A DNA stretch of 39,595 nt, taken from NCBI GenBank assembly GCA_030697555.1, contig JAUYPV010000138.1, positions 1 through 39,595 of the forward strand. Reading direction: 5' to 3'. Both the position numbers and the translations under genes were made by a program. The DNA comes from Hyphomonadaceae bacterium. Its GTDB lineage: Bacteria > Pseudomonadota > Alphaproteobacteria > Caulobacterales > Hyphomonadaceae. Of this stretch, positions 6,105-8,768 are shown piece by piece (position 1 is the first letter of the stretch; every line of letters starts with the position of its first letter). The notes beneath the pieces were generated by a model that saw only the letters and a list, made by a program, of their open reading frames with translations, was not told where the DNA came from and searched no databases.

Positions 6105-8768
<2,664 letters not shown>

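Follow-up and report, generated by a model that had tools for sequence, protein, structure and literature searches.

Does an in-frame TGA in an otherwise conserved gene for methionine synthase end translation, or can it be decoded, and if it is an ordinary stop, does it belong to the organism or to the assembly? This question is raised by a 4.98-Mb draft genome of a Hyphomonadaceae bacterium (GCA_030697555.1; 176 contigs, 99.45% complete), in which contig JAUYPV010000138.1 was analysed over its whole length of 39,595 nucleotides, hereafter the window. The initial annotation had named a very recent mutation, a wrong base and read-through as the alternatives, and we judge this to be the right set. 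In our assessment the TGA is very probably read as an ordinary stop, consensus error and recent null allele being taken jointly.

A split metH gene with a single interruption

The B12-dependent methionine synthase of this genome is split, with its homocysteine, pterin, B12-binding and activation domains spread over two nearby genes. On the forward strand, a gene for an ArsR-type regulator fused to a methyltransferase (2104..3093) precedes metF, which encodes methylenetetrahydrofolate reductase (3087..3953, first codon approximate), and the first part of metH with the homocysteine methyltransferase domain lies at 3911..5014; all three are intact open frames. Two small genes on the same strand separate the metH halves. 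They code for a Rid-family protein (frame end 5520) and a PNPOx-like protein (frame end 6098) and together span 4849..6098, with approximate starts.

The second part of metH (6105..8768, forward strand) encodes the folate- or pterin-binding, cobalamin- or B12-binding and activation domains, all from a GTG at 6105, and several relatives of the genus have a start region resembling the one found there. The frame runs from this GTG through 50 codons to a TGA at 6255-6257, continues for 836 sense codons and ends with a TGA at 8766-8768, which makes 888 codons with the final stop counted. Direct reading thereby confirms what had been proposed, namely a frame interrupted once, at codon 51 on the forward strand. 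The interrupted position is a conserved glycine of the pterin-binding domain just 5' of A-Q-I-I-D-V-N. The surrounding motif had been given as V-E-N-G-A-Q-I-I-D; its glycine is indeed replaced by TGA and A-Q-I-I-D is kept, but the asparagine is a serine here (V-E-S-stop-A-Q-I-I-D), encoded at codon 50 by AGC, as it also is in 8 of 29 family loci.

From the first ATG past the stop, an open frame of 829 amino acids (6279..8768, forward strand) is missing positions 1-50 of the pterin-binding domain, its Pterin_bind match beginning at profile position 51. Against the two NCBIfam models of methionine synthase, these 829 residues score 1086.3 bits with TIGR02082, above the cut-off of 1010.85, and 1389.9 bits with NF007024, below the full-length cut-off of 1497. 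An alignment of 29 relatives that spans the stop is gap-free at codon 51. Given these matches and this alignment, chance is not the issue for the metH frame.

A codon-usage scan for stops with coding sequence on both sides covered 449,397 bases, or 9% of the genome with the window included; it detects stops, not frameshifts. It returned six candidates. Four of them (position 6096 in the window, L166, L168 and L184) have the look of tandem-gene junctions, and L175 that of a wrong-frame match. Pfam assigned the two pieces of L166 to different families and matched neither piece of L184, a TAA candidate on the reverse strand (about 17788-19248) where two adjoining frames in the same reading frame appear phage-like by eye, as at a junction between two phage-like genes. 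Judged by eye from the translations, the metH TGA is the sole stop that truly breaks a coding frame in the 449,397 bases. With no other stop interruption in the 9% sampled, the assembly is not visibly error-rich, a point against a base error.

Further features of the window are recorded here in their own right. A plasmid search returned 23 records, every one below 90% identity. A bacterial class A RNase P RNA lies at 24855-25272 on the forward strand (283 bits). The dcw cluster has the order ftsI, murE, mraY, murD, ftsW, murG, murC, gene names that rest partly on family matches and are partly presumed. The gap between murE and mraY (30486-30694) holds no murF, only some 200 bases that contain a short frame of roughly 70 codons. 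A reverse-strand open frame of 1141 amino acids (35517-38942) runs antisense to murC and past it and has no Pfam match; base composition by codon position suggests that codon bias on the opposite strand has produced it as an artefact.

Codon 51 among relatives and the age of the stop

In a genome collection that holds one genome per species, the best match, at 86% identity, is to an uncultured Hyphomonadaceae bacterium, and records very near the window may be absent from it. The downstream part of metH is matched in 101 of 105 family genomes. Leaving out the source genome (frame length 836 amino acids) and G052, which is without the 5' part, all 99 are open at codon 51, as judged from the printed frame length, with 29 of the 99 read at codon level. 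At the level of the order, 375 of 398 genomes match the N-terminal 300 amino acids of a relative used as the query, and among the 150 of these matches listed (a number counted by hand) only that of the source genome carries a stop.

The codon 51 column reads GGC 83 times, GGT 14 times, GGG seven times and GGA twice across 106 loci from relatives, a count that probably holds one duplicate (L002 and L084 seem to be one and the same entry); glycine is thus present in all. Three of the 80 loci from the genome collection (L040, L046, L066) are unreadable at this position. Glycine also occupies it in the solved methionine synthase 9ssp, which we take to be the human enzyme. The TGA had been explained by a change from GGA. 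A single base change would indeed suffice, against two from GGC, but GGA is absent from all 29 family loci, which use GGC, GGT or GGG, and the explanation is weakened by this. GGA makes up 686 of 7,433 glycine codons in the long frames of the genome and 3 of 64 in the metH gene. A one-step origin from GGA therefore needs an intermediate unseen in the family relatives read, and the two-base gap from the family's usual GGC can be bridged by one error or one mutation only if GGA was the true codon or the ancestral one. The argument from codon distance does not separate error from mutation.

The substitutions on either side of the stop confirm that the rest of the frame is conserved. In the comparison with L082, the nearest relative, pN/pS is 0.080/0.340 on the 5' side, where only 38 aligned codons are available, and 0.076/0.448 on the 3' side; for the whole gene, dN/dS between the source genome and L082 is 0.080/0.67. 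The intact relatives give 0.057/0.695 (L082-L083) and 0.111/0.876 (L082-L091). By simple arithmetic that takes L091 as the outgroup, dN on the branch comes to about 0.047 for the source genome and about 0.033 for L082; if this excess were all neutral, metH could have been unconstrained for just a few per cent of that branch.

At columns invariant in the genus, the source genome departs at 19 of 576, the highest value among 13 sequences, followed by L091 (16/573), with L082 at 7/564. Its departures are mild replacements save for the stop, a Y to N and an H to D, and could be read as slight relaxation. In a set of 30 sequences it departs at 4 of 430 columns, stop included, where the others depart at 0 to 12. 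At codons that do not vary among ten genus-mates and L092, it carries six silent and two replacement changes with the stop excluded; in the same comparison the ten others carry 2-11 silent and 0-2 replacement changes each. These substitution patterns indicate that metH is under purifying selection still, which argues that the stop is either extremely recent or an error.

Consensus error or recent null allele

We propose that the TGA at codon 51 is an ordinary nonsense codon of the standard code in a gene with little other decay. Taken literally, the sequence would stop translation after 50 codons and deprive the cell of the only methionine synthase found. In such a case the organism had been expected to depend on B12-independent synthesis, methionine uptake or read-through, and a search for metE and another metH had been recommended. 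The search found neither: the genome yielded no second MetH and no other homocysteine methyltransferase. It also yielded no N- or C-terminal MetE-type domain, which leaves B12-independent synthesis unsupported, and a MetQ-type lipoprotein, the importer that would have spoken for uptake, was not found in the genome either. The Cys/Met family of PLP enzymes is represented by three strong matches. One study describes the core synthases MesA-D as homologous to the MetE C-terminal domain and PF01717 as modelling a domain homologous to them, MesD being distant (PMC7857596). The negative result for the MetE C-terminal domain would thus speak against core synthases too, less firmly in the case of the distant MesD. 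If the stop is real, a methionine requirement is therefore to be expected, since no second MetH, MetE-type domain or MetQ was found.

On balance, a wrong base in the assembled consensus is somewhat more likely than not. We favour this over a recent null allele because purifying selection still acts on the gene and no enzyme that could replace it was found. Further support for reading the TGA as an ordinary stop or an error comes from two open frames, metF and the metH part with the homocysteine domain, and from the three Cys/Met-type PLP enzymes that remain. The simple stop is supported by gene content; the division between error and mutation is what we infer.

The strongest competitor is a real and very recent stop, that is, a null allele at the level of the strain or the culture, in a methionine auxotroph fed externally. 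We hold this to be quite possible, if less probable than a consensus error. A lesion limited to one codon in a constrained gene would be in keeping with it, and so would the 14 of 352 good genomes of the order in which the first 300 amino acids of the metH query find no match at E <= 1e-40, as members of the order without the second part of metH may occur. It is opposed by the missing MetE-type domain and MetQ-type importer, by metF and the first metH part having stayed open, and by the distance of two bases from the usual codon of the family.

Decoding of the TGA and comparison with known systems

Production of MetH past the stop, by read-through or by restart together, is improbable. Read-through or recoding of the TGA into a full-length MetH, which we consider very unlikely, could draw on the conserved downstream frame and on the lack of another methionine synthase among the genes found. 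The release factors and tRNAs lend it no support. RF2 is present (502.6 bits, cut-off 370), and of 149 long training frames 82 terminate in TGA, 51 in TAG and 16 in TAA. None of the 42 out of 43 tRNA matches that were given an anticodon carries TCA, the 43rd being a partial match of 52 bases. The tRNA-Gly species have the anticodons tcc, gcc and ccc only, none of them TCA, in a draft tRNA set that may be incomplete: tRNA-Ile(GAT) and tRNA-Ala(TGC) are not in it, perhaps because they belong to unassembled rRNA operons. Recoding of TGA across the genome was rejected in view of RF2, the tRNA set and stop usage.

Suppression by tRNA-Trp fares no better. A24 in tRNA-Trp is a criterion for UGA suppression; the tRNA-Trp of this genome has G24 and an anticodon stem of 5 bp, and the absence of A24 and of a 4-bp stem counts against a suppressor. 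By eye, G24 and the five stem pairs are shared by 12 relatives of the genus, those of 14 from which the full tRNA was recovered. One T-arm base differs from four genus relatives, a difference that does not suggest suppression. A near-cognate tryptophan would, moreover, displace the glycine that 9ssp has as well.

As for selenocysteine, the sole match above the cut-off for tRNA-Sec is a tRNA-Ser(TGA); with no tRNA-Sec found, and with glycine rather than cysteine or selenocysteine at the 106 loci of relatives, this candidate was rejected. The RNA 3' of the codon has ordinary structure, with a z-score of 0.29 and 116 of 200 shuffles folding equally well or better. Programmed read-through was likewise set aside, the TGA being shared by no other match in the 99 family genomes or among the 150 order matches listed. 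An apparent in-frame TGA in a protein with a release-factor domain arose from a match that overran the end of an intact frame of 136 amino acids, named ArfB-like by eye. That a standard-code alphaproteobacterium should pass this one TGA often enough to make its sole methionine synthase, through a suppressor or a context effect so far unrecognised, strikes us as highly improbable.

Least credible of all is a restart that would yield a shortened MetH. In its favour, an ATG (6279) sits 21 bases past the stop codon; against it, no ribosome-binding site is visible by eye 5' of this ATG and the product would be without both G-E-R-T-N-V-T-G-S and A-Q-I-I-D-V-N, with Pterin_bind matched from position 51.

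Bacterial selenoproteins carry in-frame TGA codons, as this gene does; unlike them, the present case comes with no tRNA-Sec found in the genome, and the relatives read have glycine in place of cysteine. A TGA at a glycine position recalls the UGA-to-glycine codes reported for the Gracilibacteria (BD1-5) and SR1 (PMC4032931). In contrast to these lineages, the present genome has RF2, uses TGA as its commonest stop and yielded no tRNA with a TCA anticodon. An altered tRNA-Trp could let a bacterium pass UGA (PMC13092985); compared with what is described there, the tRNA-Trp of this genome differs in its 5-bp anticodon stem. Among the papers listed on recoding and on metH stop alleles there was no comparable case, which is no proof of absence. 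A real and bypassed stop would be a striking instance of recoding confined to one gene of a central pathway. Taken for an ordinary nonsense codon, it is mainly a caution, since automatic annotation would report a broken methionine synthase and with it a need for methionine which may not exist.

Single-nonsense pseudogenes and in-frame stop errors in draft assemblies are recognised kinds. The metH stop resembles them in being a lone stop in a conserved, intact frame, conserved on both sides (on the 5' side over 38 aligned codons only), and in being private to one assembly (at order level, among the 150 matches listed). Nothing notable sets it apart, save that no substitute for metH was found here, and this absence favours error or extreme recency. 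The TGA at codon 51 is best taken for a wrong base or for a mutation of very recent date, and not for a novel reading of the genetic code.
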